DNA of 64,000 nt from the NCBI GenBank assembly GCA_013178095.1, contig JABLXK010000001.1, positions 124,001 to 188,000 on the forward strand, read 5' to 3'. Below, one piece after another: positions 6,763 to 64,000 of this stretch. The position numbers were made by a program, and so were the translations under genes. This stretch comes from Anaerolineae bacterium. GTDB taxonomy: Bacteria; Chloroflexota; Anaerolineae; Anaerolineales; Anaerolineaceae. The notes beneath the pieces are model-generated. The model searched no databases. It was given only the letters and a program-made list of their open reading frames with translations, and had not been told where the DNA came from. How positions within the stretch are numbered: position 1 is the first letter of the stretch; every line of letters starts with the position of its first letter.

Positions 6763-6769
6763 AACTGAA

Positions 6770-6798
6770 AGCCGGTGAAAAACTCATCGGCTTTTTTT
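6770..6798 (+). terminator. Rho-independent terminator of the glycosyltransferase cluster
   Basis: A 9-bp stem (AGCCGGTGA pairs with TCATCGGCT, one G-T pair) with a 5-base loop is followed directly by a run of seven T. It begins 8 bases after the stop codon at 6762. Confidence 0.85.
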
Positions 6799-6939
6799 AA
6801 TTTTGCCCGGCAAAACCGGGAACAGGAGAAAATACCCTCGATGTGAGTATTGGTTCAGCATTTTTAAGCAACCAGCTTCACTAAGTTGCTTGGCTGCCGG
6901 ATACATCATACCGGCGTTTTGTGAGAAAAATAAGCAGAG

Positions 6940-7509
6940 TTACTTTTTCCTCATTTCTTTCTCAACTTTATTCGACTGCGCCCGGGCGCGCAGGAACATC
7001 TGCGTGGGGATGGCAAGAATGGCCTGCAGCACAAACGTGCCTCCCCAGGCGCAAGCAATGATGAGCGCAATTTGCCACCAGGGCAGCCCGCGCTGGAAAA
7101 GGACATACCCCAATCCTGCGTAAGCCGGATAGGTCAACCAGCTGGCATGACCCAGGATTTTGTAAAGCGACTGGTTGTAATAAACCTGCGTCAGGCTGAC
7201 CAGCATTGCCAGCACGGCGATGCCGTAGATTGCCCCGGTTTTCAATGAGCCGAACATGCTGACCAGGCAGAAGACCAGCACGGACAGGTCGTGGGGCAGC
7301 GACTGCCAGCCGATCTGCGATTGCTGACTGATTTTGGCTTCAATTACCTGGCGGCGCACGTCTTCGAATTCCTGACGGGTCAACATGCTGAAGCGCGCCA
7401 GCCATTCTTGCGCGGCGCTTTCATCCATTTTGTCCAGTTCGACCAACTTGAGGTCGAAAAGCTGCGCGGCTAATTCTTTGGCTTTGGCAAGTTTATGCGT
7501 TTTATCCAT
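6940..7509 (-). CDS. Small membrane protein with soluble helical N-terminus, unknown function
   Basis: 189 residues starting at the ATG complementary to 7507-7509, preceded by TGAGGAAT as ribosome binding site; a longer reading to 7578 lacks such a site. Residues 1-80 are charged and helical (KTHKLAKAKELAAQLFDL and on), followed by four hydrophobic segments and a basic tail ending EKEMRKK. I do not recognise the family. It stands alone between a plus-strand terminator and the divergent nagA gene. Confidence 0.6.
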   Translation of the reverse strand: MDKTHKLAKAKELAAQLFDLKLVELDKMDESAAQEWLARFSMLTRQEFEDVRRQVIEAKISQQSQIGWQSLPHDLSVLVFCLVSMFGSLKTGAIYGIAVLAMLVSLTQVYYNQSLYKILGHASWLTYPAYAGLGYVLFQRGLPWWQIALIIACAWGGTFVLQAILAIPTQMFLRARAQSNKVEKEMRKK

Positions 7510-7627
7510 ATCCTGTGTATTCCTCAATTCGTAGTAAATCCCTTTGATTAGTATAGCTGCGCGATGGGCGAGCGTCAAACCAATGCTTTTTTATCGCGAA
7601 GGATGGGTTTGTTTTTCCAGGATAGAT

Positions 7628-7657
7628 TATAATTGTAGTTACATTACTACATTACAA
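7628..7657 (+). promoter_or_regulatory. nagA promoter -10 box with overlapping operator-like dyad
   Basis: TATAAT lies at 7628-7633, followed by the dyad GTAGT-N6-ACTAC (7635-7650), itself inside a looser TTGTA...TACAA repeat. A symmetrical site at the start of transcription suggests repressor control. No convincing -35 box is visible. The regulator is not adjacent. Confidence 0.4.
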
Positions 7658-7700
7658 CAATTCCTGTCATGTTGCATGACTTCATTAAGGAGAAAAATAA

Positions 7701-8876
7701 ATGGCTAACCTTGTACAAATCAATGCCGGTATGATTTATACCCCGACCGCAGTATTGAAGAATAGCTGCGTGGTGGTGAATGATGCCGGGAAAATCCAGT
7801 TCGTCGGCCCCCGGTCGAAAGCCCCCGTTGACGCCGCCAAAACCATCCAGGCGGATCACCTGAATCTATCGCATGGTTTTGTGGATATTCACGTGCATGG
7901 CGGTTACGGTATCGGCTTCGGCATCGGCAGCAAATGGGAAGAGGATCTGGTTAACTATTCCCAATGGGTGATCAAAACCGGTGTGACCGATTTCCTGTGT
8001 TCGCTGGCGGCGGCTTCGCACAAGGAACTATGCGAGATGCTGGAAGCTTACGTGGGTTTTGCCGAAAAGGGATTGCCGGGCGCAAACCTGGCGGGTATTC
8101 ATCTGGAAGGGCCTTACCTGAATCCAGAACGAAAAGGCGCTTTCAACCCTGCCTGGCTGCGGACACCAAATATCGATGAGGCGCGCGATTTTATCCGCAT
8201 CGGCGGCAAGTGGCTCAAGCAGATGACCATGGCGCCGGAATTACCCGGTGCGCTTGAAGTGGCCGCCGAATTCCGCCGCGCGGGCCTCACGGTGGCCCTG
8301 GGCCATTCCAACGCCGATTACGACACCGCGCGCGAGGCATTGAAAGGCGATTTTACACATGTAACCCATACTTTCAACGCGCAAACCGGGCTCGACCATC
8401 GCAAGCCGGGCGTGGTGGGGGCGGTGATGTCTTCTGACGAGATCACCGGCGAATTGATCGCGGACGGCATCCACGTCAATGAGGGCGCCATGCGCGTGTT
8501 GCTGCGCAACCTGGGCAGCCAGCGGGTGGTGCTGATCACCGATGCGATCCCGGGAGCCGGATTACCCGATGGCGTTTACAGTTCGATCGGACAAACCATT
8601 ATCGTCAAGGACGGGCGGGCTACCTTGGAAAACGGTACGCTGGCCGGCAGCGCGGCGATGATGAACCATTGCGTGCGCAACGCGCATACGCTGGCAGGCG
8701 CCACCGTACAGGAAGCCATTCGCATGGCTACTTTCAACCCGGTCAGGGCGATGCACATGGAAGGGCAATTGGGCCTGGTTGCCACCGGCCGCAAGGCAGA
8801 CCTGATCCTGTTGGACGACGATTTCAACGTTCGCATGACCATGGTCAACGGCAAGATCGTTTATTCCGATTTATAA
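7701..8876 (+). CDS. nagA: N-acetylglucosamine-6-phosphate deacetylase
   Basis: 391 residues, normal family length, with AAGGAG upstream of ATG 7701. It belongs to the amidohydrolase superfamily. Metal-site and catalytic signatures are visible: FVDIHVHGG near residue 60, the HLEGPYLNPERKGA block with the metal-binding Glu, GHSNADYD, THTFNAQTGLDHRKPG and the catalytic Asp in LITDAIPGAG. NagA removes the acetyl group from GlcNAc-6-phosphate to give glucosamine-6-phosphate in the cytoplasm. An SIS-domain isomerase follows 21 bases downstream, and the same nagA-SIS pair recurs at 28926-30847. No transporter is adjacent, so this copy may serve wall recycling or a substrate taken up elsewhere. Confidence 0.9.
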   Translation: MANLVQINAGMIYTPTAVLKNSCVVVNDAGKIQFVGPRSKAPVDAAKTIQADHLNLSHGFVDIHVHGGYGIGFGIGSKWEEDLVNYSQWVIKTGVTDFLCSLAAASHKELCEMLEAYVGFAEKGLPGANLAGIHLEGPYLNPERKGAFNPAWLRTPNIDEARDFIRIGGKWLKQMTMAPELPGALEVAAEFRRAGLTVALGHSNADYDTAREALKGDFTHVTHTFNAQTGLDHRKPGVVGAVMSSDEITGELIADGIHVNEGAMRVLLRNLGSQRVVLITDAIPGAGLPDGVYSSIGQTIIVKDGRATLENGTLAGSAAMMNHCVRNAHTLAGATVQEAIRMATFNPVRAMHMEGQLGLVATGRKADLILLDDDFNVRMTMVNGKIVYSDL

Positions 8877-8897
8877 AAACAGGAATGGAGAAATAAC

Positions 8898-9644
8898 ATG
8901 GAAGAAAAAGGCTACATCAAATATTTCGATGGGATCGAGGCGATCCAAAAGAAAATCCGCGCCACCCAGGGCGAAAATATCGAGAAAGCCGCGCGCATTG
9001 TGGCGGAGGCGCTGATCAACGATCATTTGCTGCACGTGTACGGCGCCGGGCATTCAGCCTGCATTTCTGAGGAAATCTTTTTCCGTGCCGGTACGATTGC
9101 CGGAATCAACCAGATCCTGGACCTTTCGCTGGCGGGCGCGGTGAACGCCTGGAAAAGCGCTTACATGGAAAGGCTGGAAGGCATTGGCGAGATCCTCTAC
9201 CAGCACAGCCATGCCCAGCCTGGCGATGTATTCCTGGTTATCTCCAACTCCGGCCGCAACGCCGCCCCGGTTGAGATGGCGCGCGAAGCGCAGAAACACG
9301 GCCACAAGGTGATCGCGGAAACTTGCGCTGAATTCAGCCTGTCGCAGCCTTCCCGCCATTCTTCGGGAAAGCGCCTGCTGGATTACGCGGATGTGATTTT
9401 GGACAACCAGGGCGTTTACGGCGACTGTGTGGTGAAAATGGACGGATTCGAAATGCCCATGGGACCGGCTTCCGGTGTTTTGGGATCCTACATCATCCAT
9501 GCCATGCTGGTGCAGGTGGTTTTCACCATGCGCGATATGGGCGTGCAAAAACCGCCGGTATTCATGCACGGAAACCTGGACGGCGGCATGGAGTATAACC
9601 AGGCGCTGCTTGATAAATACTGGCCGCGCATCCGCAACTGGTAG
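8898..9644 (+). CDS. SIS-domain sugar-phosphate isomerase-like protein (UPF0309 type)
   Basis: 248 residues, a single SIS domain. A phosphosugar-binding loop is visible in VYGAGHSACISEE and VISNSGRNAAPVEMA, followed by the SRHSSGKRLLDYAD block and the C-terminal NLDGGMEYNQ motif that mark the UPF0309 subfamily. It is co-transcribed with nagA, so it presumably acts on an amino-sugar phosphate; the exact reaction (isomerase, etherase or deaminase) cannot be read from sequence. It is a clear paralogue of 30101-30847, which also follows a nagA. Confidence 0.8.
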   Translation: MEEKGYIKYFDGIEAIQKKIRATQGENIEKAARIVAEALINDHLLHVYGAGHSACISEEIFFRAGTIAGINQILDLSLAGAVNAWKSAYMERLEGIGEILYQHSHAQPGDVFLVISNSGRNAAPVEMAREAQKHGHKVIAETCAEFSLSQPSRHSSGKRLLDYADVILDNQGVYGDCVVKMDGFEMPMGPASGVLGSYIIHAMLVQVVFTMRDMGVQKPPVFMHGNLDGGMEYNQALLDKYWPRIRNW

Positions 9645-9668
9645 ACGGGTTTACTGCCAAAAAAACCG

Positions 9669-9699
9669 AACCATCCGGATAACCCCGGATGGTTTTTTT
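9669..9699. terminator. Terminator between convergent nagA-SIS and RACo-like genes
   Basis: A perfect 10-bp stem AACCATCCGG / CCGGATGGTT with a 6-base loop is followed by seven T. A-tracts on the left side make it usable on the minus strand as well. The T run overlaps the stop codon of the minus-strand gene. Confidence 0.85.
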
Positions 9700-11497
9700 A
9701 TGCCTGGATGCCGCGCGCGTAGAAGAGATCAAAATCCGGATAAAGCGATAGTTCCAGGTATTCCATACGGCGGGTGAGCGCTTCCGCCTGCGTTCGGGCA
9801 TGCGCGGAAACCAGCATGCTGCGCGCGCCGGCGCCGGCGGCGTTGCCAACCGCGCGGATCTTTTCCAGCGGGATTTCCGGCAGCATGCCGATGCGGATGG
9901 CCTGTTCCGGCAGCATGTAGGAGCCGAATGCGCCGGCGATCACAACCTCGTCGATTTGCGCAGGCTGGATTTTTAGATAATCCATCAACACCTCAATGCC
10001 GGCGCGGATGGCGCCTTTAGCCAGCAGCACCTGGTCGATATCGTGCTGCGATAACGTGATGGTTCTCCCATCGACGGGGTCATCCGAGAGCGGGAAAAAC
10101 GCCATACCGTTCGCATCCAGTTTAACGGCAGGGTGGGTCTTTTCCAGGCGTCCGCGGCGGTTGAACATACCGGCAGCGCGCATCTCTCCCAGCGCGTCCA
10201 GAATGCCCGACCCGCAAATCCCGTTGGGCTGCCGATCTCCGATGACGTCCAGTTCGAGCCTGCCATCCGGGCGGATGCGCACGTGTTCGATGGCGCCCGG
10301 CGCAGCACGCATGCCGAATTGAATGTGCGCGCCCTCAAAAGCCGGGCCGGAGGCCGTGGAAACGCTGACGATACGGTTGCCTTTTTGCAGAGCGATCTCC
10401 GTGTTGGTGCCGATGTCGATCCCCAGGCGCTTGCGTTCATCCCTGCCGAAAGCGCAGGCGTATAGAAATGCCAGGTGATCTGAGCCGACAAAACCGGCGA
10501 TCACCGGCGGAGCGTACACGCGCATGCCGGGCATGCCGATTAGTCCGATATCTTCAGCCGGGACGTTTTGCGCGGCGGAAACCGCCGGCACGAAAGGCGA
10601 GACTGCCAGGGATGCGCCGGGCAGGTCCAGAAAAAAATGGTGCATGGCGGTGTTGCCAACCAGGCAGGCATCCGCGATGGAATCATCTGCGATCCCGACC
10701 TGGCGGCACATTTCCACGGCAGTGTTCTGAATGGTCTCGATTACCAGATTATGCAGCTTTTGGCTTTGCTGCGCACCCTGCTGCGCGTAAGCCAGGCGCG
10801 CCATAATATCCTCGCCGTACCCGATTTGCGGATTGGGCGCGCCTTTAGCTGCCAGCAGGCAGCCGGTTTCCAGGTCGAGCAGGTAACATGCCAGCTTGGT
10901 GCTGCCCACATCCACGGCCAGCCCGGCCAGTGGCCGGCAGGCCGCCGGTGCGAAATGCATGACCGTATGTCCGTGGTGGATGAGGTTGATATGCCATTGA
11001 GACGAGCGCAGCGCTTCGGGCAGCCTGCGCAGGGTTTTCATATCCGCCGTCAGGTCCGCCAATCCACAAGCGTCTTTCAGGCGTTCAAAGTCCGATCGTA
11101 AATCTTCCAGGGTGGGCGGTGGAAGCATGACTGCCTGCTGCTGAATGGGGGAATCCACCTGAAGATCGATTTCCTCTCCGCTGGTTTGCAGCACCTGGCC
11201 GGAAAGCATGGTTTCCGCCGGAATCAGGACTTTGCAATCGCCATCTGCCACTGCGGAACAGGCCAACCGAAAACCCTCGCCGATTTGTTTCTCGGAGAGA
11301 TGCCTGCGGTCATTTTCGACAGGCGGGATGGGGTGCGCGCTGGCGGCGACCTGTACGCGGCATTTTCCGCAGGTTCCCGCCCCGCCGCAATCGGCGCGCA
11401 ATGACAGCCCCACGCGCCGGGCGGCATCCAGGAGGGTGAGCGGCTCCTCGTTAACCAGCCGAACGCCGACCGGTTGAAATTCAATCGTAAAACTCAT
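9698..11497 (-). CDS. Ferredoxin-ASKHA fusion protein, RACo-like corrinoid activation protein family
   Basis: 599 residues. The N-terminus is a plant-type [2Fe-2S] ferredoxin domain with ligands C37, C43, C46 and C80. After a ~100-residue linker comes an ASKHA ATPase domain from about residue 190 (GLAVDVGSTKLACYLLD), with LGIDIGTNTEIAL, the CGSGILDALGEM block and VIAGAFGSYM. Known members (RACo) reductively reactivate Co(II) corrinoid proteins using ATP; others in the DUF4445 group have no assigned role. No corrinoid methyltransferase gene is adjacent, but the cobamide salvage operon lies 2 kb away. The function is inferred from domain order only. Confidence 0.75.
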   Translation of the reverse strand: MSFTIEFQPVGVRLVNEEPLTLLDAARRVGLSLRADCGGAGTCGKCRVQVAASAHPIPPVENDRRHLSEKQIGEGFRLACSAVADGDCKVLIPAETMLSGQVLQTSGEEIDLQVDSPIQQQAVMLPPPTLEDLRSDFERLKDACGLADLTADMKTLRRLPEALRSSQWHINLIHHGHTVMHFAPAACRPLAGLAVDVGSTKLACYLLDLETGCLLAAKGAPNPQIGYGEDIMARLAYAQQGAQQSQKLHNLVIETIQNTAVEMCRQVGIADDSIADACLVGNTAMHHFFLDLPGASLAVSPFVPAVSAAQNVPAEDIGLIGMPGMRVYAPPVIAGFVGSDHLAFLYACAFGRDERKRLGIDIGTNTEIALQKGNRIVSVSTASGPAFEGAHIQFGMRAAPGAIEHVRIRPDGRLELDVIGDRQPNGICGSGILDALGEMRAAGMFNRRGRLEKTHPAVKLDANGMAFFPLSDDPVDGRTITLSQHDIDQVLLAKGAIRAGIEVLMDYLKIQPAQIDEVVIAGAFGSYMLPEQAIRIGMLPEIPLEKIRAVGNAAGAGARSMLVSAHARTQAEALTRRMEYLELSLYPDFDLFYARGIQA

Positions 11498-11602
11498 GAG
11501 ATAGTTATCCGGTATTGATTATAAATGAAGGATAACCGGATTTTTAAAACGAAAATCCACATGCGGATACATGCGGACGGGGAAGGGGAGAAAAACGGGG
11601 AT

Positions 11603-12370
11603 TTAAGGCAGAATCAAGTCGGCAATGGATTTAACCACTCTGCCGGGTCGGTAGGGATATTCCTCGATCTGTTTCACGGAGGTCACGCCGCTGAGCACCA
11701 GGACGGTTTCCATGCCGCTTTGAATGCCGGCTACGATATCGGTGTCCATACGGTCGCCGATCATGACGGTATTCTCCGAATGCACGCCCAGGTAATTCAG
11801 GGCTGAGCGCATCATAAACGGGCTTGGTTTGCCGCAATAGAAGGGCGAACGGCCGCTGGCTTTTTCGATCAGGGCAGCCATGGCGCCGCAGGCGGGCGTG
11901 ATGCCGCTTTCCGAGGGGCCGGTGGGGTCGGGGTTGGTAGCGATGAACGAAGCGCCTTCCATGATCAATCTAACCGCCTTGGTGACCTGGCGGAAGTTGT
12001 AATCAAACGTCTCGCCGAGCACCACGAAATCCGGATTCTCATCGGTCATGATGTAACCGGCGTTGTGGATGGCTACGTTCAGTCCGCTTTCGCCGATCAC
12101 AAAAGCATTGCCGGCTTCTTTCTGGGCTTTCATGAAGGCGGCGGTTGCCATCGCCGAGGTGAAAATATGATCGGCGTCAATATTCAATCCAATATTTTGC
12201 AGCCGGTGAGCCAGGTCGATCTGCGTATAGATCGAGTTGTTGGTGAGAACCAGAAATTTCGCCTTGTTCTTTTTCAATGATTCGATGAATTCATCCGCGC
12301 CGGGGATCATTTTCTTGCCCTGTACGAGGACGCCATCCATGTCAATCAAGTAATTTTTGATATTTTCCAT
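11603..12370 (-). CDS. HAD-IIA (NagD-like) phosphatase
   Basis: 255 residues, the usual length of the family. HAD motif I is YLIDMDGVL (nucleophile Asp and general acid Asp), motif II is VLTNNS, the motif III Lys is in FYCGKPSPF and motif IV is [10 protein letters not shown]. The cap insertion between motifs II and III is of the C2A type seen in NagD and p-nitrophenylphosphatases. AAAGG precedes the ATG. It is probably a cytosolic phosphatase for nucleotide or sugar phosphates. It sits between the RACo-like gene and the aldolase gene on the same strand, separated from the latter by a terminator. Confidence 0.85.
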
Positions 12371-12440
12371 TCATATACCTTTTTGTTTTATTAACTTATT
12401 TCATAACCTTTATATATTATATTCGTTATGAATTTGCCGC

Positions 12441-12482
12441 AAAAAAAGGGACCCGAAAAATTGTTTCAACCGGATCCCTTTT
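12441..12482 (-). terminator. Terminator of the aldolase gene
   Basis: Read on the minus strand, AAGGGATCCG pairs with CGGGTCCCTT (one mismatch) and is followed by a run of seven T. It begins 22 bases after the aldolase stop codon. Confidence 0.85.
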
Positions 12483-12503
12483 CTCTTTCACGATCTGTTG
12501 AAC

Positions 12504-13451
12504 CTACGAAACGAGCTTGCGAACTTCTTCCAATTGCCCGGAGCTGCCCAGGAAGTCATTCTTCTGGTGGATGAACTTGGCATATTCCGCCATGAAGATC
12601 TTGCCCGGCGCGCGTAAATCGAAACCTTCGGGGTGTTCGAGGAAGTATTCGCGGTGTACACGCGTCCAAACCAGGCGGCCGTCGGTGTCGATGTTGATCT
12701 TGGTCACGCCCAGTTTGGCGGCCTGCTTGAATTGAGTTGCGTCCACGCCTTTGGCACCCAGCAGCTTGCCGCCGGCGGCATTGATGCGCTCGACCTCTTC
12801 CTGCGGGACCGAGCTGGAACCGTGCATGACCAGCGGGAATCCGGGCAGGCGTTTCTGGATTTCCGAGAGTACATCGAAATGCAGCGACTGCGAGCCGGAG
12901 AATTTGAACGCGCCGTGGCTGGTGCCGATGGCAACTGCCAGCGAATCGCAGCCAGTGCGTTCAACGAAATCTTTGGCCTGGTCAGGATTGGTCAGTTTGG
13001 CATTTTCTTCCGAAACGCTGACGTGTTCTTCCACGCCGCCCAACTGGCCGAGTTCCGCTTCCACCACGATGCCCCTGGCATGCGCGGCTTCCACGACGCG
13101 TTTGGTTACCTCAATGTTCTTTTCATATTCCAGATGGCTGGCGTCGATCATGACCGAGCTGTAGAAACCGCTGGCAATGCAGTCGTAGCAGGCTTCCTCA
13201 TCGCCATGATCCAGGTGCACGGCAAAGATGGCTTCCGGGAAAACTTCGTCCGCGCCGCGAATGACGTTTTCCAGCATGATTTTGTTGGTATAGCTGCGCG
13301 CGCCTTTGCTGATCTGGATGATAAATGGCGCCTGGCTTTCCAGGTTGCCCTGGAACAGCCCCATGGTTTGTTCCATGTTATTGATGTTATAAGCGCCTAA
13401 AGCATATTTTCCATATGCCGCTTCAAATAATTTTTTGGTAGTTACGATCAT
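12504..13451 (-). CDS. fba: Class II fructose-bisphosphate aldolase family protein
   Basis: 315 residues. Class II (Zn-dependent) signatures are present: YNINNMEQ, FAVHLDHGDEE with a zinc-binding His, the EAELGQLGGVEE block with the metal-binding Glu, AIGTSHGAFKF, PLVMHGSSSVP and KINIDTDGRL. The enzyme cleaves fructose-1,6-bisphosphate, or tagatose-1,6-bisphosphate in close relatives, to dihydroxyacetone phosphate and glyceraldehyde-3-phosphate. The tagatose alternative deserves thought because amino-sugar genes lie on both sides. It is a single gene with its own terminator. Confidence 0.88.
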   Translation of the reverse strand: MIVTTKKLFEAAYGKYALGAYNINNMEQTMGLFQGNLESQAPFIIQISKGARSYTNKIMLENVIRGADEVFPEAIFAVHLDHGDEEACYDCIASGFYSSVMIDASHLEYEKNIEVTKRVVEAAHARGIVVEAELGQLGGVEEHVSVSEENAKLTNPDQAKDFVERTGCDSLAVAIGTSHGAFKFSGSQSLHFDVLSEIQKRLPGFPLVMHGSSSVPQEEVERINAAGGKLLGAKGVDATQFKQAAKLGVTKINIDTDGRLVWTRVHREYFLEHPEGFDLRAPGKIFMAEYAKFIHQKNDFLGSSGQLEEVRKLVS

Positions 13452-13588
13452 TTAAGTCTCCTTGAATTAAACCCGAATAAATACCCACGCTATTATAGTA
13501 TGAAAAAAGCCGGCAGATTGGCCGTTTGTTCGATTTAATTGAATATTAACGTTGCCAGAAGATTTAATCCATAAATAAATGACCAATA

Positions 13589-49705: not shown

Positions 49706-49867
49706 AAAGCATTGTTACAGTTCGTTTAACTGATTTTAATAGGATATTTGTAAAATGATTGATTTTGCACTCCTGTCGCGCTAAAATGAATTTACATTAC
49801 CCCATTCCATTGAAGAAATACTTGATCTAAGGCCGCCTGAAAGAAATTGATTCCAAAGGAGGAGATC

Positions 49868-52804
49868 ATGCATAAAAAAAGACGTTCTTTGTGGATTGGA
49901 TTAACGATTTTGTTACTGTTGACAATGGGGGCGTCGGAGTGCGCGCCAAAGATGCAGGCGCCGCCGGCGGAGGCAGCCGAATCCGCGGCAGCGGCGGTCA
50001 AGCCGAATTTGAGCATGTACGCCAGCCCCATCAGCAGCCCGGTGGCAACCCTCACCATTCCCCCATACCTGCTGCGTTTCCGTATTCGCTATATTCCCCC
50101 TGGCTGGTTTGCGCTTGGCAGCGATGAGGAGGAGGACAAGCTTTCACGAGGGGATGAGGCTCCACAGCGGATTGTGGCTGAGTCGGGCTTTTGGATCGGT
50201 GAGAGCGAAGTAACCAATAAGGAGTACCTGGATTGCGTGAAATCCGGTTGCTGCACCCCGCCCAGCCTGCGGGAAAGCGGCCCCACCAACCATTACGGCG
50301 ATCCGGCATACGATGATCATCCGGTGGTGGGAGTGAATTGGTTCCAGGCGGCGCAATACTGCGAATGCATGGACGCGCGCCTGCCCACCGAAGCAGAATG
50401 GGAGAAAGCCGCCCGCGGGGACGAGGGTAATATCTATCCATGGGGAGACGAAGCACCCACCTGCGACCGCACAAACATGAACGGCTGCGGCGCGGAAGGA
50501 TCCACCAAAGCGGTGGCTTCCTATCCACTGGGGATCAGCCCCTACGGTTTGTACGATATGGCCGGCAATGTGCGTGAATGGACGGCGGACGATTATGAGG
50601 CTGACAGTTATCAAACCCTGGCCAGGTTCAATCCCGGCAACGCAGATGACGGCGAGAAAAAGGTCGCGCGCGGTGGCGGATTCAACGATTTCGAAGAAAA
50701 CCTGCGTTCGGCTGCGCGCTTGTCGCTGGATCCCAAACAGGACTACGATGATGTCGGTTTCCGCTGCATACCGGTTTCGCGCACCTACGCGCCGGTTTGC
50801 CAGCCAACCTACCGCAGATTTTGCTACGATCCGCGCAATCCACCCCTGGATGAACCTTGTGAACCCGGGCAGGGCGTACCCGGCGAGGAAGGGCTGACCT
50901 TCCTGGGTTACGGCTGCCCGATGGATAAAAAGGTTGATTTCCAGGTCAGGACCAACGGCGGGGGCAACAGCGGCTACTCCGCGGTTGTCAACGGTGTTTC
51001 CTTTAATTGCACGCCGTCTTCGAGCGGAGCGGACATCGTCAATTGCAGCGGGCCGGAAACACCCATGGGGAGCGAGGTGCAAATTGTGGTTTGCGCGGGA
51101 GGCGCAACCCCAACCACCGCGCAGGACACAAGCCCGGTCAGCCAGGCTGCCGGAGGGATCCTGCCGGTCTTGTTTACAACCATCGGCAAGGTCAGTTTGA
51201 TGACTGCCACGTCGAGCAACTGCCCGGATGGATACGTCATGAACCCGGATACCGGCCAATGTGAACGGGATACCACGCAGCCGGATTGCCCGGAAAACTG
51301 GACGCTGAACCGCCAAACGCAGCAATGCGAACCCAACAACCCGCAGGAAGATTGTCCGGAAACCACTACCTACTCCGCAAATCTGCAGGGCTGCCAACCG
51401 GAAGATGGAGAATGCCCGCAGGGATACTACCTGACGGCGCAGCAAACCTGTGAACCGGACAAAAACCGCCAGGAAAACTGCCCGCCCGGTTATTACTTCA
51501 ACGTGCAGATCGGCTGCTGCGAACCGATCCCTTCCAATAATTACGGCTGCGAAGATGGTTATTACTACAACCTCCGTTATCAGCGCTGCGTGCCCGTGGA
51601 TGACAATGGCTGTTATTTCGGCACCACCTACAACGGGTACGGCCAATGCGACCAGAACCCGGATACACCGGGCCCGGATGACGAGCAGCAAGGGGATTGC
51701 CCGCCCGGACTGGTGACGGCGGCTACCAACATTTGCGACCTCCCGGAAGGCGAAGGCAATGAAAACAATCCGCCAATCGGCACCTTGCTGCGCAGCGGGG
51801 ATACAATAACCGCGGATGAGGTCATGCCCGGCGCAGGCGATCAGGGCAATTGCGCGGATGGCTACGTATATGCGGCCGCCATCGGGCGCTGCATCCAACG
51901 CGACGAAAATAATTGCCCGCCCGGTTACTATTTTGACAAAGAATTCAAGCGCTGCCGGCCGACCAATGGACCGGGCAGTCCCTGCCCGAAAGGCTACGTT
52001 TTCAGCTACCGGGCGAACTGCTGCTTGCCGCAGCCCGGAACGGATGGCGCTTATTGCCCGGAGGATGGCGATGATTCGCAAGGCACGCCTGATCAGACGG
52101 ATGGTCAAACCGCAGCAGCCGGCGCGACCGCTGCGAATGGCAGCCAGGTGACGCCTTTCGCCAATTCCAATTTCGATATCCTGACGGGTTTGTGCATTGA
52201 AGGCGGAACGCCTGAGGATGACGATAACCCCGATAATCCTTGCCCGCCCGGAACTTACAGCGCCAACTTCACCAACTGTGACCAGTATCCGCAGGATGGC
52301 GAGGAAGCCACTGAAGATCCCGAGGAGATCAAGCTGCGACAGGCGAACTGCCCGCCCGAATACTGGAACGCCAACACCAACACCTGCGATTACCCCGAAC
52401 CGCAGTGCGGCGAGAATGAATACTTCGACCGCCAATTGGGCTACTGCGTGCCCCTGCAGGAAGACTGCTGCGAACTGGGTCAGGATTATTCCGCCAACCT
52501 GAAACGCTGCGAGGACGTGATCACCAAACCGCGCGACGGCGGCTGCCCGGAGGGTTACGAACTATTGAATGACGGGTTATGCTACCTGATTGGGCGCACC
52601 GAGGGCATGGGGCAGTGCTGGACCTTTACCGTCAACACACCCAGATGCGTTGGCCCCTGCGAGGTCGGCTTGATCTACAATCAGGTGACCGGACGCTGCG
52701 AGAAACCGCAAGTTACTGATGAATGCGCTAATGTAAAATGCAGCGCAAATCATTGTCCCAGTAAATGCTGTGTTTGGATAAAAGATCGTTGTGTAAAAAG
52801 ATAA
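49868..52804 (+). CDS. Secreted protein with SUMF1 (FGE-like) domain and Cys-rich repeats
   Basis: 978 residues from ATG 49868 (AAAGGAGGAG upstream). An N-terminal signal segment is followed by a SUMF1 domain at ~70-300: YIPPGWFALGSDEEEDKL, FWIGESEVTNKEYLDCV, RLPTEAEWEKAARG, YDMAGNVREWTADD and ARGGGFND...RSAARLSL...VGFRC. The region where true formylglycine-generating enzymes carry two catalytic Cys has none (GGGFNDFEENLRSAAR), so sulfatase activation is unlikely. From ~430 to the end come about fifteen Cys-rich units of the form C-P-x-G-Y-Y-x(6-8)-C-x-P, probably disulfide-bonded. Probably a large extracellular binding or matrix protein. Confidence 0.75.
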   Translation: MHKKRRSLWIGLTILLLLTMGASECAPKMQAPPAEAAESAAAAVKPNLSMYASPISSPVATLTIPPYLLRFRIRYIPPGWFALGSDEEEDKLSRGDEAPQRIVAESGFWIGESEVTNKEYLDCVKSGCCTPPSLRESGPTNHYGDPAYDDHPVVGVNWFQAAQYCECMDARLPTEAEWEKAARGDEGNIYPWGDEAPTCDRTNMNGCGAEGSTKAVASYPLGISPYGLYDMAGNVREWTADDYEADSYQTLARFNPGNADDGEKKVARGGGFNDFEENLRSAARLSLDPKQDYDDVGFRCIPVSRTYAPVCQPTYRRFCYDPRNPPLDEPCEPGQGVPGEEGLTFLGYGCPMDKKVDFQVRTNGGGNSGYSAVVNGVSFNCTPSSSGADIVNCSGPETPMGSEVQIVVCAGGATPTTAQDTSPVSQAAGGILPVLFTTIGKVSLMTATSSNCPDGYVMNPDTGQCERDTTQPDCPENWTLNRQTQQCEPNNPQEDCPETTTYSANLQGCQPEDGECPQGYYLTAQQTCEPDKNRQENCPPGYYFNVQIGCCEPIPSNNYGCEDGYYYNLRYQRCVPVDDNGCYFGTTYNGYGQCDQNPDTPGPDDEQQGDCPPGLVTAATNICDLPEGEGNENNPPIGTLLRSGDTITADEVMPGAGDQGNCADGYVYAAAIGRCIQRDENNCPPGYYFDKEFKRCRPTNGPGSPCPKGYVFSYRANCCLPQPGTDGAYCPEDGDDSQGTPDQTDGQTAAAGATAANGSQVTPFANSNFDILTGLCIEGGTPEDDDNPDNPCPPGTYSANFTNCDQYPQDGEEATEDPEEIKLRQANCPPEYWNANTNTCDYPEPQCGENEYFDRQLGYCVPLQEDCCELGQDYSANLKRCEDVITKPRDGGCPEGYELLNDGLCYLIGRTEGMGQCWTFTVNTPRCVGPCEVGLIYNQVTGRCEKPQVTDECANVKCSANHCPSKCCVWIKDRCVKR

Positions 52805-58695: not shown

Positions 58696-59025
58696 TTAAA
58701 GAATCAGTTTTGAAATTTTTTCCTGTACTTCTGAAATACATTCTGGGGGAACATGATCCACAATTTGTACTTTACGTGCGTTCCAATCAATTGTCCTGAC
58801 TTGATCGGAAAGGATTACACCGGTTACTTTCAGTCCTGTAGGTATTTCAACCTCAAAAGGATACCCTTTTTGCTGATTGGTGATGGAACATACAACAGCC
58901 AAGCCAACTTTTCTGTTATATATTTCCGGAGAAATTACCAGGGCACGGCGATAACCTGCTTGCTCATGGCCCGTTGTGTTGTCAAAATCGAGTTTGATTA
59001 AGTCTCCCCGTTTCGGAATTTCCAT
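58696..59025 (-). CDS. mazF: MazF/PemK-like endoribonuclease toxin
   Basis: 109 residues, the usual size. Opening IPKRGDLIKLDFDNTTGHEQAGYRRALVIS and the later VILSDQVRTIDW are the conserved PemK/MazF blocks, containing the Arg and Ser/Thr positions used in RNA cleavage. It starts one base after the antitoxin stop, so expression is coupled. Confidence 0.92.
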   Translation of the reverse strand: MEIPKRGDLIKLDFDNTTGHEQAGYRRALVISPEIYNRKVGLAVVCSITNQQKGYPFEVEIPTGLKVTGVILSDQVRTIDWNARKVQIVDHVPPECISEVQEKISKLIL

Positions 59026-59026
59026 G

Positions 59027-59260
59027 CTAGATCATTTCCTTCCCTTGTGCGGAACTGTGATCGATTAGCTCATGCTTGTTTTCTTCGGTGATTAATGCCA
59101 TCATTTCATCCAGACTTTGTCCGCGTTTGATGATCAATTGATCGCCGACCAATTCAAGTGAAACACTGGTATTTTCCTTTACACCAAGTTGGGCAGCAAA
59201 GGGTTGGGGAATACGCAAAGCCAGACTGTTTCCCCATTTCGCGATAGTTACATTAATCAT
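59027..59260 (-). CDS. mazE: MazE-like AbrB-fold antitoxin
   Basis: 77 residues. The N-terminal swapped-hairpin DNA-binding domain reads KWGNSLALRIPQPFAAQLGV, followed by a polar C-terminal tail that would wrap around MazF. AAAGGAT precedes the ATG. It represses its own promoter, which holds a long palindrome. Confidence 0.92.
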   Translation of the reverse strand: MINVTIAKWGNSLALRIPQPFAAQLGVKENTSVSLELVGDQLIIKRGQSLDEMMALITEENKHELIDHSSAQGKEMI

Positions 59261-59516: not shown

Positions 59517-60638
59517 TTAGTCTTTCAAAGTGATCTTGATTTTCTTTTTCTTCTTGCCGGCTTTCTTGCTCTTGAAGATGTTCACCACCAGCGGGATGCA
59601 CAGCAGCACCACCAGCACGGCCAGGATGCCGCCGAACAGCAGCCAGGATGCCGGGCGTGCCACTTCGGGCACCAGCCCGCCGGGGTTGTAACCGGTCTGC
59701 GACTGGCCGCCCACGCCGCTGTAGCGGTCGGAGAGGGTGACGGTCAGTGCGCGGCGCACGCCGTCGCGCAGGCTGAGAGGCGTGATGTAACTGATCACCA
59801 CCTCGCTTTGCAGGGCGCGGCGCATCTGGTCGTAAATGGCCGAAAGTTCTTCCTTGTTCTCGGCGTAGCCGTAGCGCCCGCCGGCGTTCTCGGCGATTCC
59901 GCGCAGCGCGGCTTCGTCGATGCCGCTGTACTGGTCGGCTTCCTCTTCCTCTGCGGGGATTTGCCCGAAACCGATTGTGGAGATGGACAGGCCGCCGAAA
60001 CCGATGCCCGCCAGGGCTTCGTCAGCGGTGGCTTTGCTCTGGTTGTCCATGCCATCCGTGAGCACGATGATAGCCTTGCGCCCGGAAAGCGGGTTGAGCA
60101 TTTCAATGGCTTTCACCAGCGCGTCGTACAGGGCGGTATCGGAATTGGCGCTGATGCCGTCGATGGCGTCTTCCAGGTCTTCGCGGTCGGAGGTGATTTC
60201 CTGCGCGACCTCGACTTCGGTATTAAAGGTGATGACGCCGGCCTGGTCGCCGCCGCGCATCTGGCTCAAATATTCTTTGGCCACATCCTTGGCGCTTTCC
60301 AGTTTGTCGGCGTAGTTCATGCTGCCGGAGTTATCGATCAGCAGCAGGGTGGTGAGCGCGCCGGCTTCGCCGCTGCCCCGAATGCTCTGGCTGCTGACGG
60401 GCTGCCCATTTTCCATAAGTTGCAGTTTGCCGGTGTTGATCACCTGCGGCTCGCCGGCCGCATCCTGCACGGAAATGTAGACGTCCACCAGCGGGAAATC
60501 GGTGGTGTCGATCTGCGTGATCTGCAGCACGTACTGCCCCTGGCTTTCCACTTTAGGCGTGGACACCTGGCAGGCGGACGCCAGCAGCATGAGCGCCAGC
60601 AGGGAAACGGTCAATAAGGGTTTCATTATTCTCATCAT
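59517..60638 (-). CDS. VWA-domain lipoprotein with C-terminal membrane anchor
   Basis: 373 residues, GAGGT before the ATG. The signal peptide has lipobox ASAC (C23). A VWA domain spans ~95-280 with a complete MIDAS: DNSGSM (D102, S104, S106), the Thr in SDTALYD and the Asp in VLTDGMDNQ. A transmembrane helix near the end (WLLFGGILAVLVVLLCIPLV) is followed by a Lys-rich cytosolic tail. The domain faces outward, anchored at both ends. It is the last gene of the Ubl/E2/JAB operon, 3 bases after the FHA gene. Possible role: metal-dependent adhesion or assembly of a surface complex; the link to protein modification is positional. Confidence 0.88.
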   Translation of the reverse strand: MMRIMKPLLTVSLLALMLLASACQVSTPKVESQGQYVLQITQIDTTDFPLVDVYISVQDAAGEPQVINTGKLQLMENGQPVSSQSIRGSGEAGALTTLLLIDNSGSMNYADKLESAKDVAKEYLSQMRGGDQAGVITFNTEVEVAQEITSDREDLEDAIDGISANSDTALYDALVKAIEMLNPLSGRKAIIVLTDGMDNQSKATADEALAGIGFGGLSISTIGFGQIPAEEEEADQYSGIDEAALRGIAENAGGRYGYAENKEELSAIYDQMRRALQSEVVISYITPLSLRDGVRRALTVTLSDRYSGVGGQSQTGYNPGGLVPEVARPASWLLFGGILAVLVVLLCIPLVVNIFKSKKAGKKKKKIKITLKD

Positions 60639-60641
60639 GAC

Positions 60642-61499
60642 TTACCTCTTTTCGTGATAGACCATTTCCGACTTGCCCATGCGAATGCGCGCGCCGGCAT
60701 GCAGGCGGGAGACTTCGATCTTCTTGCCGTCCAGGTAGGTGCCGCTCATGCTGATGTCCTTGAGGGTGAAGTAAGTGCCTTCACCTTTCAGGATGGCATG
60801 CTGCGGCGCGATATCCGGGTCGGCCACCACGATGTCGGATTTGAGCGGGCTGCTGCCGATGGCGGCGGCAGGCGCTTCCTTGGCGAGGAATTTATCCAGG
60901 ATGAATTCCATGCCCAGCATCTTGCCGCTGGTCACTTCCAGCCAGACGCGCGAGAGCAGGAACACGATCAGGGCGATAAAGACGCCGACCGAGGCGCCCA
61001 ACAGCATCAACCCCGCGGCTTTGCCCATCAAGGGATCGGCGAACATCAGGCGCGCGCCTTCCAGCAGCACGCCCCCCAGCAGGCCGCCGATCAGCCCGCC
61101 CAGGCCCCCCTTCCATAGCTGGGCACCTCCGGTGATACCAGTGGCCAGACCGGTGAGCAAACCGAAGATGCCCCAGCCGATGGGGCGCCCCCACACCTGC
61201 CCGCCGATGGAAAGGAATACTCCCTCGGCAATCGGCAGGGCGATGGCGCCGCCCACCGCGCCCAACAAGGCGCTCAAAAGGGATTTGCGCAGGCCGAACA
61301 GGAAACTCTGCGCAGCGAATCCTTCACCGAAGCCGATCAGCAGGCCGATCACGCCGCCCAGCAGCGCGCCCACGATCACTTCGCTCAGGAAAAGATTGTC
61401 CGTAAAGGATAACCCCAGGATGTTGCTGATCTGCCACCCGATCAGTCCTCCGATGGCGCCCAGCAATCCGTAGGTATAAAAACGCATGATACGACTCAT
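60642..61499 (-). CDS. Polytopic membrane protein with C-terminal FHA domain
   Basis: 285 residues. Residues ~7-190 are five or so Gly-rich hydrophobic segments with glycine-zipper character (GLLGAIGGLIGW, GGLIGGLLGGVLL). Residues ~205-285 are an FHA domain: DIVVADPDIAPQHAIL, YFTLKDISMSGTYLDGKKI and RIRMGKSEMVYH. FHA domains bind phosphothreonine peptides, but the usual Arg-Ser pair before the H reads D-I-A-P-Q-H here, so binding may be altered. Its ATG overlaps the JAB stop (ATGA), giving tight coupling. It could recruit a phosphorylated partner to the membrane. Confidence 0.85.
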   Translation of the reverse strand: MSRIMRFYTYGLLGAIGGLIGWQISNILGLSFTDNLFLSEVIVGALLGGVIGLLIGFGEGFAAQSFLFGLRKSLLSALLGAVGGAIALPIAEGVFLSIGGQVWGRPIGWGIFGLLTGLATGITGGAQLWKGGLGGLIGGLLGGVLLEGARLMFADPLMGKAAGLMLLGASVGVFIALIVFLLSRVWLEVTSGKMLGMEFILDKFLAKEAPAAAIGSSPLKSDIVVADPDIAPQHAILKGEGTYFTLKDISMSGTYLDGKKIEVSRLHAGARIRMGKSEMVYHEKR

Positions 61500-62167
61500 G
61501 TCGGTAAGACCTCCTCAGTCTGTTCGTTAATTTCTTGGGCAGGCTGCAGGTTCTTCCAAAAGACCACGCTTCTCTGATTTCTATTGGTCAGCTCATAGAA
61601 ACCAAAGTAGTTGCGTTGGTCCAGCGTGCCGTCCGGCTGGCGGATGAAAAAGCCGCCGATCGACTGGTGCGGTTCGATCACCAGGGCAACCTGCCATTTT
61701 TCCGGAAAAAAGTTCTGGTGCAGCCAGGCATCCCAATGGGAGAAGAAAACGCCCATGCGCGGGTGGGTATGATACCAACCCAGGAAGACCTTACGCGGGT
61801 AGTACTCCTCCAGGTGATTGTGCAGCGCCACCTGGGTGTCGCCGGTAAAGGTCAGGTGCGCCGCGCCTTGCTCGGTGTAGACTGCCGGCAGGATGGTATC
61901 TACCACGATGAAAGGCTCGCCGTGCAGGGAATCACGGCAAAACTTTCCGGCCATCCAGCCGCCCACTTCATTGTCCAGGTCGCTGCCCGCGTGCGCGCAC
62001 ATGCGCACGAAGGCGTTCTGGGTGAGAAAGATGTCCAGCGGCGGGCGAACCCGCTGCATCTCCTCATCTTTCGGTTCCCAGCGGATGGCGCTGTGGTAAG
62101 GGATGCGGGTGCGCTGCGGCTTTAATCCGTTGTTATCCGATAATTTCACTCGCGGAGGGTTATTCAA
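61496..62167 (-). CDS. JAB/MPN (JAMM) metalloprotease, deubiquitinase-like
   Basis: 223 residues from TTG (complement of 62165-62167), supported by GGAG eight bases upstream. All JAMM residues are present: Glu67 in NEVGGWMAG, H133 and H135 in YHTHPRMG, and S143 and D146 in FFSHWDAW, i.e. H-x-H-P-x6-S-x2-D. A Zn-dependent isopeptidase is expected. Gene order (just after the free ubiquitin-like protein) suggests it removes or matures that modifier. No extra domain is fused. Confidence 0.92.
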   Translation of the reverse strand: MNNPPRVKLSDNNGLKPQRTRIPYHSAIRWEPKDEEMQRVRPPLDIFLTQNAFVRMCAHAGSDLDNEVGGWMAGKFCRDSLHGEPFIVVDTILPAVYTEQGAAHLTFTGDTQVALHNHLEEYYPRKVFLGWYHTHPRMGVFFSHWDAWLHQNFFPEKWQVALVIEPHQSIGGFFIRQPDGTLDQRNYFGFYELTNRNQRSVVFWKNLQPAQEINEQTEEVLPT

Positions 62168-62194
62168 GGCGGCAGCTCCGGATTTTATTCTCCG

Positions 62195-62461
62195 TTATCC
62201 CGCGGTGATGTCGGCAGTGATCATCAGGCGGTCGTTATCGGGCACGGCAGCGCTGCTGAGGGTTTCATCGTCCTTCAGTTCGCGGCCGAGCGCCTTGCTA
62301 TCCAACCGGTAGCTTACCGGCCGGCCATCCGGGCCGACAGTGGGCAGTTCCAGGGTGGTAGCCAATTCAGGCACCAATTCCTTCACAGCCACGTCATCGG
62401 GTACTTCCGCGTTGCGGGTACCTCCGGAGGGTAAAACAAGCGTTACGTTTTTGTCAGCCAT
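62195..62461 (-). CDS. Free ubiquitin-like (YukD/beta-grasp) protein ending in Gly
   Basis: 88 residues, AGGAAAAAG before the ATG. The sequence VTLVLPSGGTRNAEVP, GPDGRPVSYRLDSKALGREL and a final strand RLMITADITAG fit a ubiquitin/YukD-like beta-grasp fold. By hand alignment 60 of 88 positions are identical to the N-terminal domain of the neighbouring E2 fusion. The reading frame stops directly after Ala-Gly, so the protein is made with an exposed C-terminal Gly and would need no processing before activation. It is the obvious candidate modifier of this operon. Confidence 0.88.
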   Translation of the reverse strand: MADKNVTLVLPSGGTRNAEVPDDVAVKELVPELATTLELPTVGPDGRPVSYRLDSKALGRELKDDETLSSAAVPDNDRLMITADITAG

Positions 62462-62475
62462 CTTCTTTTTCCTTT

Positions 62476-63321
62476 CTATTTGAGTCTGATTTTGGGTTTC
62501 GCCACGCTCAGCGGCTTGTTGAACTTGATGCGTTCCGGCCGCAGCAATTCGCGTGAATCGACGGGAAAATATTTGGGATTCTTTTTACGGAATTCCCGGC
62601 ACCATTTGGCGGCTTCCATGTCCCACGGAAAAGGGGGTTTGGTGGGATCATCGTGGAAGTTTTTATATTCCAGCATCTCCCCCAGCATGATCACCAGGCG
62701 GTCCAGCGAACGGCTGGCAGACCACCAGGCGGCGTCGATGCACACGCTGCCGTTGGCATGGTTGATGTTCGGGTGCCAGATGGGGGTCAGCCACTTCATG
62801 CCCGGCCAGCGCTGCGGGTATTGGCTGTGCAGGTATATTTCCACCTGGTGATGTTCTCCGACTTTGGGATTCCCCAAACGGTCAATCCCGATAATACCTT
62901 TGCATTTATAGGTGATGATGTAGCGTTCGGGCGGCAGCCCGATGCGTTCGGTTTTGGCGTTGACCTGGATCAGGTCGCTGCGCGCATCAATTTCCTGGAT
63001 AAGTTCGTAATCCTTGCGCAATCGGCGCAGGCGCGGGTTGGAATCGACCGATATGGCCCCGGCGGTGATGTCGGTGGTAATCATCAGCCGATCTTCATGC
63101 GGAATCCCGCTGCTGGATAAAGTCTCATTCTCGCGCAGTTCGCGCCCCAGCGCCTTGCTGTCCATGCGGTACCCCATCGGACGGCCGTCAGGGCCGACGA
63201 TGGGCAGGCCGAGCAGCGAGGTGAGTTCAGCCAACAGGTCGCGCACCGCCACGTCATCCGGCATATCCGCCCGGCGTGTGCTTCCGTTGGGTAAAACGAG
63301 TGTTACTGGTATATCCGCCAT
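62476..63321 (-). CDS. Ubiquitin-like domain fused to E2-like conjugating enzyme
   Basis: 281 residues from ATG 63321 (GGAGGA upstream; a longer reading to 63381 lacks a site). Residues 1-88 are a ubiquitin-like domain paralogous to the next gene. Residues ~95-260 are an E2/UBC fold: ERYIITYKCKGIIGI and HHQVEIYLHSQYPQRWP strands, the canonical H183-P184-N185 motif, then catalytic Cys194 in GSVCID, followed by WWSASRSLDRLVIMLGEML and a helical C-terminus with FHDDPTKPPFPWD. HPN plus Cys nine residues later is very close to eukaryotic E2s. It should carry a modifier as a thioester; the built-in Ubl may be a cis regulator or a substrate. Confidence 0.93.
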   Translation of the reverse strand: MADIPVTLVLPNGSTRRADMPDDVAVRDLLAELTSLLGLPIVGPDGRPMGYRMDSKALGRELRENETLSSSGIPHEDRLMITTDITAGAISVDSNPRLRRLRKDYELIQEIDARSDLIQVNAKTERIGLPPERYIITYKCKGIIGIDRLGNPKVGEHHQVEIYLHSQYPQRWPGMKWLTPIWHPNINHANGSVCIDAAWWSASRSLDRLVIMLGEMLEYKNFHDDPTKPPFPWDMEAAKWCREFRKKNPKYFPVDSRELLRPERIKFNKPLSVAKPKIRLK

Positions 63322-63346
63322 CCGTTCCTCCAAGTAGACAATGAAT

Positions 63347-64000
63347 TCATAGCTCGTTCCGGTGAGCCACACCGCAAGCACCGGTCAGGTCCCAACAATC
63401 CTGATGGTGCCATGTACCGCATTCGGGACAGATCATTTTTCTGTCGTTCTTGTTGACTTTTTCCAGGCAATACGGGCAGACATGTTCCTCTTCGCCCATC
63501 AGTTTAACGTCGTTATTCTGCGGGGTTTTGGATTTTTTAATCGCAGCGGGTTTGGCAGCCGCGAGCTGCTTAACAGCGGGTTTGACTGCACGGCCGGTTT
63601 TTATGGTTTTTGAAGTGGATTTAGAAGCAGCATTAACCCGCACCGGTTTGGCAGAGACAGCCTTTTTGGCGGTTTTGGTGATCTTTTTGACCTGCTTGCC
63701 GACATCACGCGTGACCTGCCAATTGGCCGGGTTGATAGTATTGATCACCGGCTGCACCCGTTCGCTCAAGGAAACCTGCGGCTGGATGCTCTGAATTGGC
63801 TGCGGCGCGGGCGCAGGTGCGGATTGCGCCTGAATCCTGGCGGGTTTGCGGCGCCTGCGCAGGAAAAACAGCGTCGGCAGCGCGACCAGCAGAATCAGAA
63901 TAAACTGAGCGGCATCGCTGGGGATGGGCATGGCGAAAGTAAAATTGCGGGTCAGAAATGACAGGCGATAGGTGCCATCGTAGAAATAGTCGATCACCAG
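63347..64000 (-). CDS. Membrane-anchored RING-finger-like protein, candidate E3 (5' end outside the window)
   Basis: 217 residues visible; the frame continues past the right edge. A luminal/extracellular part is followed by one transmembrane helix (AAQFILILLVALPTLFFL) with an Arg-rich stop-transfer, a long Ala/Lys/Pro-rich linker and a C-terminal zinc domain of ~35 residues: CPYC, CPEC, HH-x2-CW and CGVAH. Spacing and the CPECGTWHHQDCW core resemble the prokaryotic RING family 1. The zinc domain faces the cytosol. The E2 gene starts 25 bases downstream, so an E3-like or scaffold role is likely. Confidence 0.8.
   Translation of the reverse strand: MVIDYFYDGTYRLSFLTRNFTFAMPIPSDAAQFILILLVALPTLFFLRRRRKPARIQAQSAPAPAPQPIQSIQPQVSLSERVQPVINTINPANWQVTRDVGKQVKKITKTAKKAVSAKPVRVNAASKSTSKTIKTGRAVKPAVKQLAAAKPAAIKKSKTPQNNDVKLMGEEEHVCPYCLEKVNKNDRKMICPECGTWHHQDCWDLTGACGVAHRNEL

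Follow-up and report, generated by a model that had tools for sequence, protein, structure and literature searches.

Bacterial operons that combine a YukD-like ubiquitin-like protein (Ubl) with an E1, an E2, a JAB protease and a Prok-RING protein were reportedly predicted by Burroughs, Iyer and Aravind in 2011, who are said to have proposed conjugation of the YukD-like Ubl; the core domain set of those operons is the same as that of the locus described here, which lies at the right-hand end of a 64,000-nucleotide stretch (the window) of an Anaerolineae bacterium genome (assembly GCA_013178095.1, contig JABLXK010000001.1, positions 124,001 to 188,000). In Caldiarchaeum subterraneum, ubiquitin, E1, E2 and a small RING protein are encoded in one operon and an Rpn11/JAMM protease processes the ubiquitin precursor, at least in the available portions of two accounts (PMC5654768, PMC6043591), an arrangement to which we liken the present one. 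Unlike Caldiarchaeum, however, this locus encodes a YukD-like Ubl ending in a single Gly, a Ubl fused to the E2, a membrane RING protein and, following these, FHA and VWA proteins. No match to the proteasome family PF00227 was found in its own genome or in that of Pelolinea submarina, and a proteasomal fate of conjugates was dropped on that ground. The explanation we favor, and hold to be probable though by no means certain, is that these genes form a conserved seven-gene chromosomal operon for a Ubl-tagging pathway, in which a GntR/FadR-type domain on the E1 is predicted to act as a repressor at the promoter of this same operon and so to set the dose of the pathway.

The operon runs on the minus strand in the order E1, membrane RING, Ubl-E2, Ubl, JAMM, membrane FHA and VWA. 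A preliminary description of the window, made from its letters, had recognized the last six of these as a one-strand operon at 59517-64000 and had placed a missing E1 to the right of position 64000; all six genes are present, each of them, including those for the E2, Ubl, JAB and Prok-RING families it had proposed to search for, exceeds the curated Pfam cut-off, and the first gene of the operon, a short way past the end of the window, is a ThiF/E1 gene. The E1 (568 residues; L003:5234-6940, where L003 is the stretch around and past the window end and window coordinates are L003 coordinates plus 59000) begins 234 bases past the window, and its 3' end, with the stop, shares 4 bases with the start of the RING gene. 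The RING protein (296 residues when complete; 63347-64237, or L003:4347-5237) extends 237 bases beyond the window and is followed by Ubl-E2 (281 residues from its ATG, 62476-63321, a 301-residue open frame being an upstream extension of the same gene), the free YukD-like Ubl (88 residues, 62195-62461), the JAB/Rpn11-like JAMM protease (223 residues, 61496-62167), a Gly-rich membrane protein with FHA at its C terminus (60642-61499) and the VWA protein (59517-60638), the spacings from RING to VWA being 25, 14 and 27 bases, then a 4-base overlap and then 3 bases. The Pfam values are 2e-9 for Prok-RING_1, 1.5e-11 for UQ_con and 6e-7 for YukD in Ubl-E2, 4e-11 for YukD in the free Ubl, 1e-8 for JAB, 1e-11 for FHA and 4e-18 for VWA_2. 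The E1 was one of two ThiF-family matches in the genome (C1:188843-189538, minus strand, 843 bases past the window), the other being a separate gene on C8. That second gene, the presence of an E2 with its Cys, a RING protein and a JAMM protease in the same operon, and the lack of any rhodanese or cofactor family among the seven genes make a sulfur-carrier or cofactor pathway built on a MoeB/ThiF-type E1 hardly probable at all.

Relatives were collected by scanning six short peptide patterns over one genome per species (84,980 species), a procedure that finds close relatives only. It gave 31 loci with a relative of the E1, under the titles Pelolinea, Anaerolinea, other Anaerolineales, Anaerolineae and Chloroflexi, among them the complete genome of P. 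submarina. A survey of gene order had been suggested along with the preliminary description, and in 27 of the 31 loci the seven genes keep one order and strand; contig ends truncate L041, L046 and L054, and in L050 the FHA and VWA genes are lacking. The E2 HPN motif and active-site Cys (Cys194, codon at 62740-62742, minus strand) are retained in 31/31 rows and the JAMM ligands (E, HxH, SxxD) in 30/30. The free Ubl, which here ends in TADITAG, ends in TAG, and hence in Gly, in 29 of 30 rows, the remaining row (L041) being cut by a contig end and L044 having been excluded from this alignment by the length filter. The RING zinc ligands are Cys or His in 32/32 rows, the last His in 31 of 32 with one gap. 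The residues that the preliminary description had pointed out are thus as it claimed, and so are the two facts on which it had made its reading depend, namely that an E1-like gene exists in the genome and that homologues keep the E2 Cys and the JAMM ligands. With a ThiF-fold E1, an E2 carrying its Cys and HPN, a Ubl with a Gly end, and JAMM and RING ligands in place, this is by its sequence a Ubl-conjugation operon, and conjugation is predicted.

One could also envision the YukD-like Ubl acting non-covalently in a type VII secretion-like assembly, given the YukD match itself, the FHA and membrane proteins encoded nearby and an alignment between the Ubl part of its model and chains belonging to the type VII pore complex ESX-5. 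We regard this as very improbable. WXG100 was without a match in the own genome (G000), in Pelolinea (G003) and in G071, and had two matches in G061 (four genomes searched), and although Bacillus YukD was found unconjugated in the available part of one report (PMC1779556), the Ubl here has a conserved TAG beside genes for E1, E2, RING and JAMM.

Within the conjugation pathway, the fused Ubl keeps the motif T[AT]D[IV]TAG (TTDITAG here, 63058-63078, minus strand, the likely processing site), followed by Ala, Ser or Gly in 31/31 loci and 118/120 homologues and then by a variable linker; the free Ubl has the same end and needs no processing. Because the free-end motif is retained inside the fusion, the JAMM protease, whose nearest solved relatives are Rpn11 chains, likely cuts the Ubl-E2 precursor after TAG. 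The fusion itself is likely a derived state, since Ubl and E2 are separate genes in L068 and L126, which lie outside the main group. A reversed fusion (E2 first, ending in MAG) was seen at L131:3-743, with E2 above and YukD below the Pfam cut-off. Deep-branch operons of the present kind, which we call type A (L048, L049, L051, L052, L125 and L128-L130), have a second, longer JAMM gene, in several cases ending in the same basic tail motif that is described below for the E1 and E2; in L128 only the long JAMM was found.

The E1 joins, in a single open frame, a GntR domain (PF00392, residues 10-72, 1e-17) to a ThiF domain (residues 135-366, 3.6e-57). Its adenylation site, GAGALGN, and its candidate catalytic Cys306 are invariant in 26 rows, as are Arg36, Arg46 and Arg50 of the winged helix, which by residue pattern we take to fit the DNA contacts of FadR, and the helices and strands predicted for residues 9-72 fit a winged helix (the fold-search lists for both models were filled by the E1 core and the Ubl; the winged helix and the E2 part were barely probed there). 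The best-scoring curated regulator model is PdhR, at a score below its full-length cut-off, and there is no Pfam match in the E1 to the ligand-binding C-terminal domain of the FadR type, its place being occupied by ThiF. The GntR domain could be aligned in all 32 E1s of the first locus set (that of L054 lying in two frames) and is annotated in all 120 E1 homologues listed among 7401 matches; where these annotations name the E1 at all, they give one or both domains and no pathway. In the E1 tree every GntR-fused E1 included falls with L126 into one clade (99/99), separate from the sister operons that we call type B. The L126 E1 is without GntR, which it may have lost, or its line may have split off earlier.

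A dyad with the consensus TGGTCWGACCA occurs at the promoter; on the gene strand of the own locus it reads TGGTCTGACCA, with the operator core TGGTCAGACCA at L003:6962-6972, beyond the window and 21 bases from the E1 GTG, and the end of a promoter-like TTGACA-17-TATACT (11/12; L003:7010-6982) lies 9 bases before it. Operators of FadR and PdhR take the form TGGTNNNACCA, and the dyad is a predicted site of this type for a GntR/FadR-type regulator. With at most one mismatch and within 250 bases upstream, it was found at 39 of 42 type A loci, against 21 of 8400 shuffled upstream regions, and in 34 of the 39 a further ACCA follows four bases later. The loci without the core dyad are L126, whose E1 is without GntR, and L051 and L128, which have the variant ACTGGTAT-N7-ATACCAGT, so that a TGGT/ACCA dyad of some form is present at all 41 fused loci (39 core, 2 variant); these come down to 37 distinct loci, of which 35 carry the core operator and 2 its variant, because L122, L123, L124 and L127 repeat L052, L049, L050 and L048, respectively. 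Upstream regions from 12 further or unresolved genomes gave the core dyad, again with at most one mismatch, in 9 and the looser TGGTNNNACCA (0 or 1 mismatch) at the same distance in the remaining 3; among these 12, L150, L151 and L157 repeat L030, L029 and L025. Three stretches besides the 12 (L154, L158 and L159) lacked usable upstream sequence. The 17 E1 loci without GntR, in contrast, had no exact dyad and one single-mismatch site, 193 bases off. Because the E1 carries the GntR fusion and the dyad accompanies fused loci while being nearly absent from unfused ones, binding to this site and repression of its own operon by the E1 are predicted and seem likely.

Several points weigh against self-repression. 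The 120 homologues listed are close relatives, and their agreement is therefore not independent. Of 21 genomes searched in full, 13 have the exact 11-mer at the operon and 8 do not, all 8 carrying a near form. About one copy of the 11-mer per genome would be expected by chance, by our estimate, so only its place is telling. It is also conceivable that the GntR domain serves no autoregulation and instead brings the E1 to DNA, for modifying DNA-bound proteins or controlling other genes, as the 2 to 5 copies of the 11-mer in several genomes might suggest; but the operon promoter holds the sole exact copy in both the own genome and the complete Pelolinea genome, and the 26 of 39 copies that lie elsewhere in the 21 genomes are not commoner than a reversed control pattern (31). 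A regulon beyond the operon was thus rejected, and we consider DNA targeting of this sort improbable.

In the likely mode of working, the E1 would be a dimer like MoeB/ThiF that binds the TGGTCWGACCA dyad, where transcription starts, with its two winged helices and adenylates the Gly-ended Ubl. By analogy with BirA, E1 loaded with Ubl or Ubl-AMP would repress once acceptors run out, whereas an E1 kept busy would come off the operator. Like Rpn11 acting on pro-ubiquitin in Caldiarchaeum, the JAMM protease likely cleaves the precursor Ubl-E2 behind TAG, and it likely reverses conjugation as well. Basic C-terminal tails of the E1, E2 and VWA proteins probably fit as beta-strands into an acidic beta2-alpha1 groove of the Ubl, in the manner of SUMO and its SUMO-interacting motifs (SIMs), and the docked tails would keep the pathway assembled next to the RING protein at the membrane.

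These tails share a common motif of the PRIKLK type. The E2 ends in PKIKLK or near forms (PKIRLK here, 62479-62496, minus strand) in 28/31 loci and in 119/120 homologues, which are close relatives; counted over the last 12 residues, the motif is present in 28 of 31 E2s (at most 4 in shuffles) and 19 of 28 VWA proteins (at most 2). E1 tails, which in the own locus bear motifs of the [IV]K[IL] type, hold 263 copies in 115 proteins (5 of the 120 homologues were not parsed) against a shuffle mean of 17, with as many as 9 in P0109 and 8 in P0060 in tandem repeats, and by a stricter pattern at least one copy in 28 of 30 loci. By comparison, the motif was found in the last 14 residues of 7 of 801 other frames of at least 150 residues in the loci, four of them again belonging to the operon, three as second JAMM genes and one as a piece of an E1. 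A wider set of tail-bearing substrates was sought in 6 genomes with a loosened codon pattern that encodes a P-[KR]-[IV]-x-L-K type C terminus and its stop, and was rejected, the matches numbering 10 against 7 for the reversed control; the five that end an open frame of more than 100 residues are four E2s and one VWA-like frame.

The charge of the tails runs opposite to that of the Ubl. Among type A rows, which include four repeated loci, 36 of 38 have a negative Ubl beta2-alpha1 stretch and 41 of 41 a positive E2 tail, whereas in type B the Ubl stretch is positive in 17/17 and the E2 tail negative in 17/17, L131, an E2-Ubl fusion that the script had sorted into type B, having been left out of the tail count (18 to 17). 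The beta2-alpha1 groove of SUMO binds SIMs, among them the one with which the E1 subunit SAE2 ends, according to the available part of one source (PMC12687455). Because tail and Ubl stretch are opposite in charge and both are reversed in type B, the shared tail is probably a SIM-like dock for the Ubl.

Here too there are observations on the other side. The E1 tails of L025 and L027 have no copy by the stricter pattern, the motif lies in the last 14 residues of only 18 of 32 E1s, and the L128 E2 tail and some VWA tails are without it. Near forms such as GRVHLID escaped the tail pattern. In one genome (L050 = L124, two rows), the Ubl stretch has a charge of +1 and the E2 tail is basic. Two or three lineages stand behind the charge swap. 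In the AlphaFold model of Ubl-E2 the tail does not dock (pLDDT below 50), although one chain modelled by itself tests this weakly, and cis docking of the E2 tail, which the model does not show, was discarded. The tails could instead be basic membrane-binding or lysine acceptor peptides, being rich in lysine and, in the VWA protein, following a transmembrane segment. We doubt this, though we give it some weight: in several E1 tails the motif is free of lysine (RPRIVVH), and the acidic type B E2 tail, which keeps the I-x-I pattern opposite a basic Ubl stretch, is required by neither membrane binding nor lysine acceptance. Docking of the tails would fit into a fuller scheme, which we offer tentatively and would not ourselves back at even odds, in which a BirA-like E1 is its operon's repressor and reads Ubl loading, a SIM-like charge code is carried by the E1, E2 and VWA tails with its polarity reversed in the sister pathway, and an outward-facing VWA sensor calls conjugation to the membrane RING protein.

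The membrane linkage proposed in the preliminary description finds support in hydrophobic segments predicted for the RING, FHA and VWA proteins; the membrane or cell-surface assembly complex that it suggested as the thing modified would be a candidate substrate. In the RING protein, the hydrophobic segments fall within residues 11-126 and Prok-RING_1 at the C terminus. In the FHA protein, the membrane segment and the FHA match both stand; the position of the phosphothreonine-binding Arg, presumably that after the Gly of the first loop, is occupied by Ser in 28/28 rows with a residue there (one further row is gapped), and a role as phospho-reader of the pathway was dropped for that reason. The VWA protein has a signal-peptide-like start and a complete DxSxS metal site (28/28 rows), and by hydropathy a C-terminal transmembrane segment followed by the basic tail KIKITLKD. 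Its earlier label as a lipoprotein is too narrow; among the N-termini compared, several of them with extra residues ahead of the true start, a lipobox-like Cys was seen only in the own genome and Pelolinea.

The operon is patchily distributed, as Ubl-E2 matches were found in 25 of 101 genomes (own and relatives) and in 15 of 400 genomes of the phylum (10 close, 2 type B and 3 weak). Ubl-E2 had no match in 50,697 phage records or 72,556 plasmid records, and a mobile-element origin was rejected. Within three frames upstream of the operon lie genes for ribosomal L1 in 11/32 loci and L10 in 9/32, and a convergent LexA gene lies within three frames downstream in 10/32 (for example L029), one member of each group having been verified with Pfam; the window's own locus has none of these neighbors. 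The ribosomal and LexA neighborhood, taken with the lack of phage and plasmid matches, speaks for a core function over a mobile defence island, although the operon could serve defence. Known bacterial Ubl operons are described as mainly phage-defence in the available part of one source (PMC12687455), and the E1-E2 and JAB models of PADLOC match our E1 and JAMM protein, so that this could be an anti-phage operon of the Bil, CBASS or Bub kind, conjugating its Ubl to phage or immune proteins. However, PADLOC gave no match for RING, Ubl-E2, Ubl, FHA or VWA; the core-genome place beside ribosomal L1 or LexA (10 or 11 of 32 loci, the window's own excepted) and the phage and plasmid results point elsewhere; the predicted regulator is a GntR-E1 and not CapW, CapH plus CapP or CapK plus CapS; and for Bub itself phage protection was not demonstrated, to judge from the accessible part of that study (PMC13373217). 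Among the Bil component models, only a 67-residue BilD match in the E1 was seen among the best 25 of 34, and, as to type II CBASS, there is no CD-NTase family among the seven genes and the fusion partner of the E2 is a Ubl and not an E1. We thus consider defence unlikely, and prefer a chromosomal Ubl-tagging pathway under its own E1.

The type B sister operons (family f20) encode an E1 without GntR, a free Ubl, a free E2, two JAMMs (one with a hydrophobic stretch) and a RING protein, with no FHA or VWA match in loci of which several are cut by contig ends, and their E2 tails are acidic (EADDLGINIL-like). Such loci (L066, L067, L109-L121, L132 and L133) occur in many genomes of the class. Pelolinea has a second Ubl operon (L070 in G003, 5646-13577) with an E1 bearing a Ubl-like C-terminal stretch, two E2s (one without the active-site Cys), a JAMM, a VWA and two RING-like genes, in which the Ubl ends in ITSAR, the Ubl stretch is basic and the E2 tails are acidic. 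Directly 3' of the VWA gene, on the same strand, the window holds a MazE/PemK-like toxin-antitoxin pair (58696-59260), and the MazE query had no match at any other locus of the relatives' set. Beyond the operon, at L003:7294-10958, lie a gene for a divergent protease of the papain family, within which sits an I42 (chagasin-like) inhibitor domain, and then a separate I42 inhibitor gene. Elsewhere in the window a long Cys-rich protein is encoded at 49847-52804; the 763-residue antisense frame opposite it (50144-52435) is probably spurious.

The kind of core pathway seen here had reportedly been predicted already in earlier work. A fusion of GntR to a ThiF/E1-like domain appeared in no paper found by our literature searches, which covered titles and the starts of abstracts and did not reach the Burroughs, Bil and Bub papers that would be likeliest to deal with such operons, and as far as the literature could be searched, the GntR-E1 with its operator, the shared tails and the TAG end of the fused Ubl are unreported. 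Should the E1 indeed act as repressor of its operon, a ubiquitin-type pathway would be governed by how far its first enzyme is loaded, which is familiar from biotin ligase and reported for no E1 in the literature searched. The tails suggest that bacteria, too, recognize a modifier in SIM-like fashion, a trait otherwise linked with SUMO, and that charge allows this recognition to be traced from operon to operon. Because the complete genome of P. submarina is public, regulation, conjugation and substrates are directly testable there.

The closest parallel for the proposed control is BirA, which adenylates and whose loading drives repression, though the folds of BirA and E1 are unrelated. BirA is a group II biotin protein ligase, and group I ligases are without a DNA-binding domain, much as type B E1s are without GntR (PMC4016012, in its available part). 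In contrast to BirA, the activated substrate here is a protein, the Ubl, and repression is a prediction. The Caldiarchaeum E1 has no DNA-binding domain mentioned in the accessible portions of its two accounts (PMC5654768, PMC6043591), whereas GntR is fused to the E1 here. For the tails, the nearest likeness is SUMO E1 SAE2, whose motif at the extreme C terminus is a proposed modifier tether in the part of the source at hand (PMC12687455), like the E1 tail here; type A differs in its reversed charge, in carrying the motif on the E2 and a transmembrane VWA protein as well, and in that docking is predicted. Bub and Bil are likewise operon-encoded bacterial Ubl pathways, many of them under a dedicated regulator, but as described in the available part of that study (PMC13373217) CapW, CapH plus CapP and CapK plus CapS are separate genes, whereas the predicted regulator of the present operon is part of the E1 itself.

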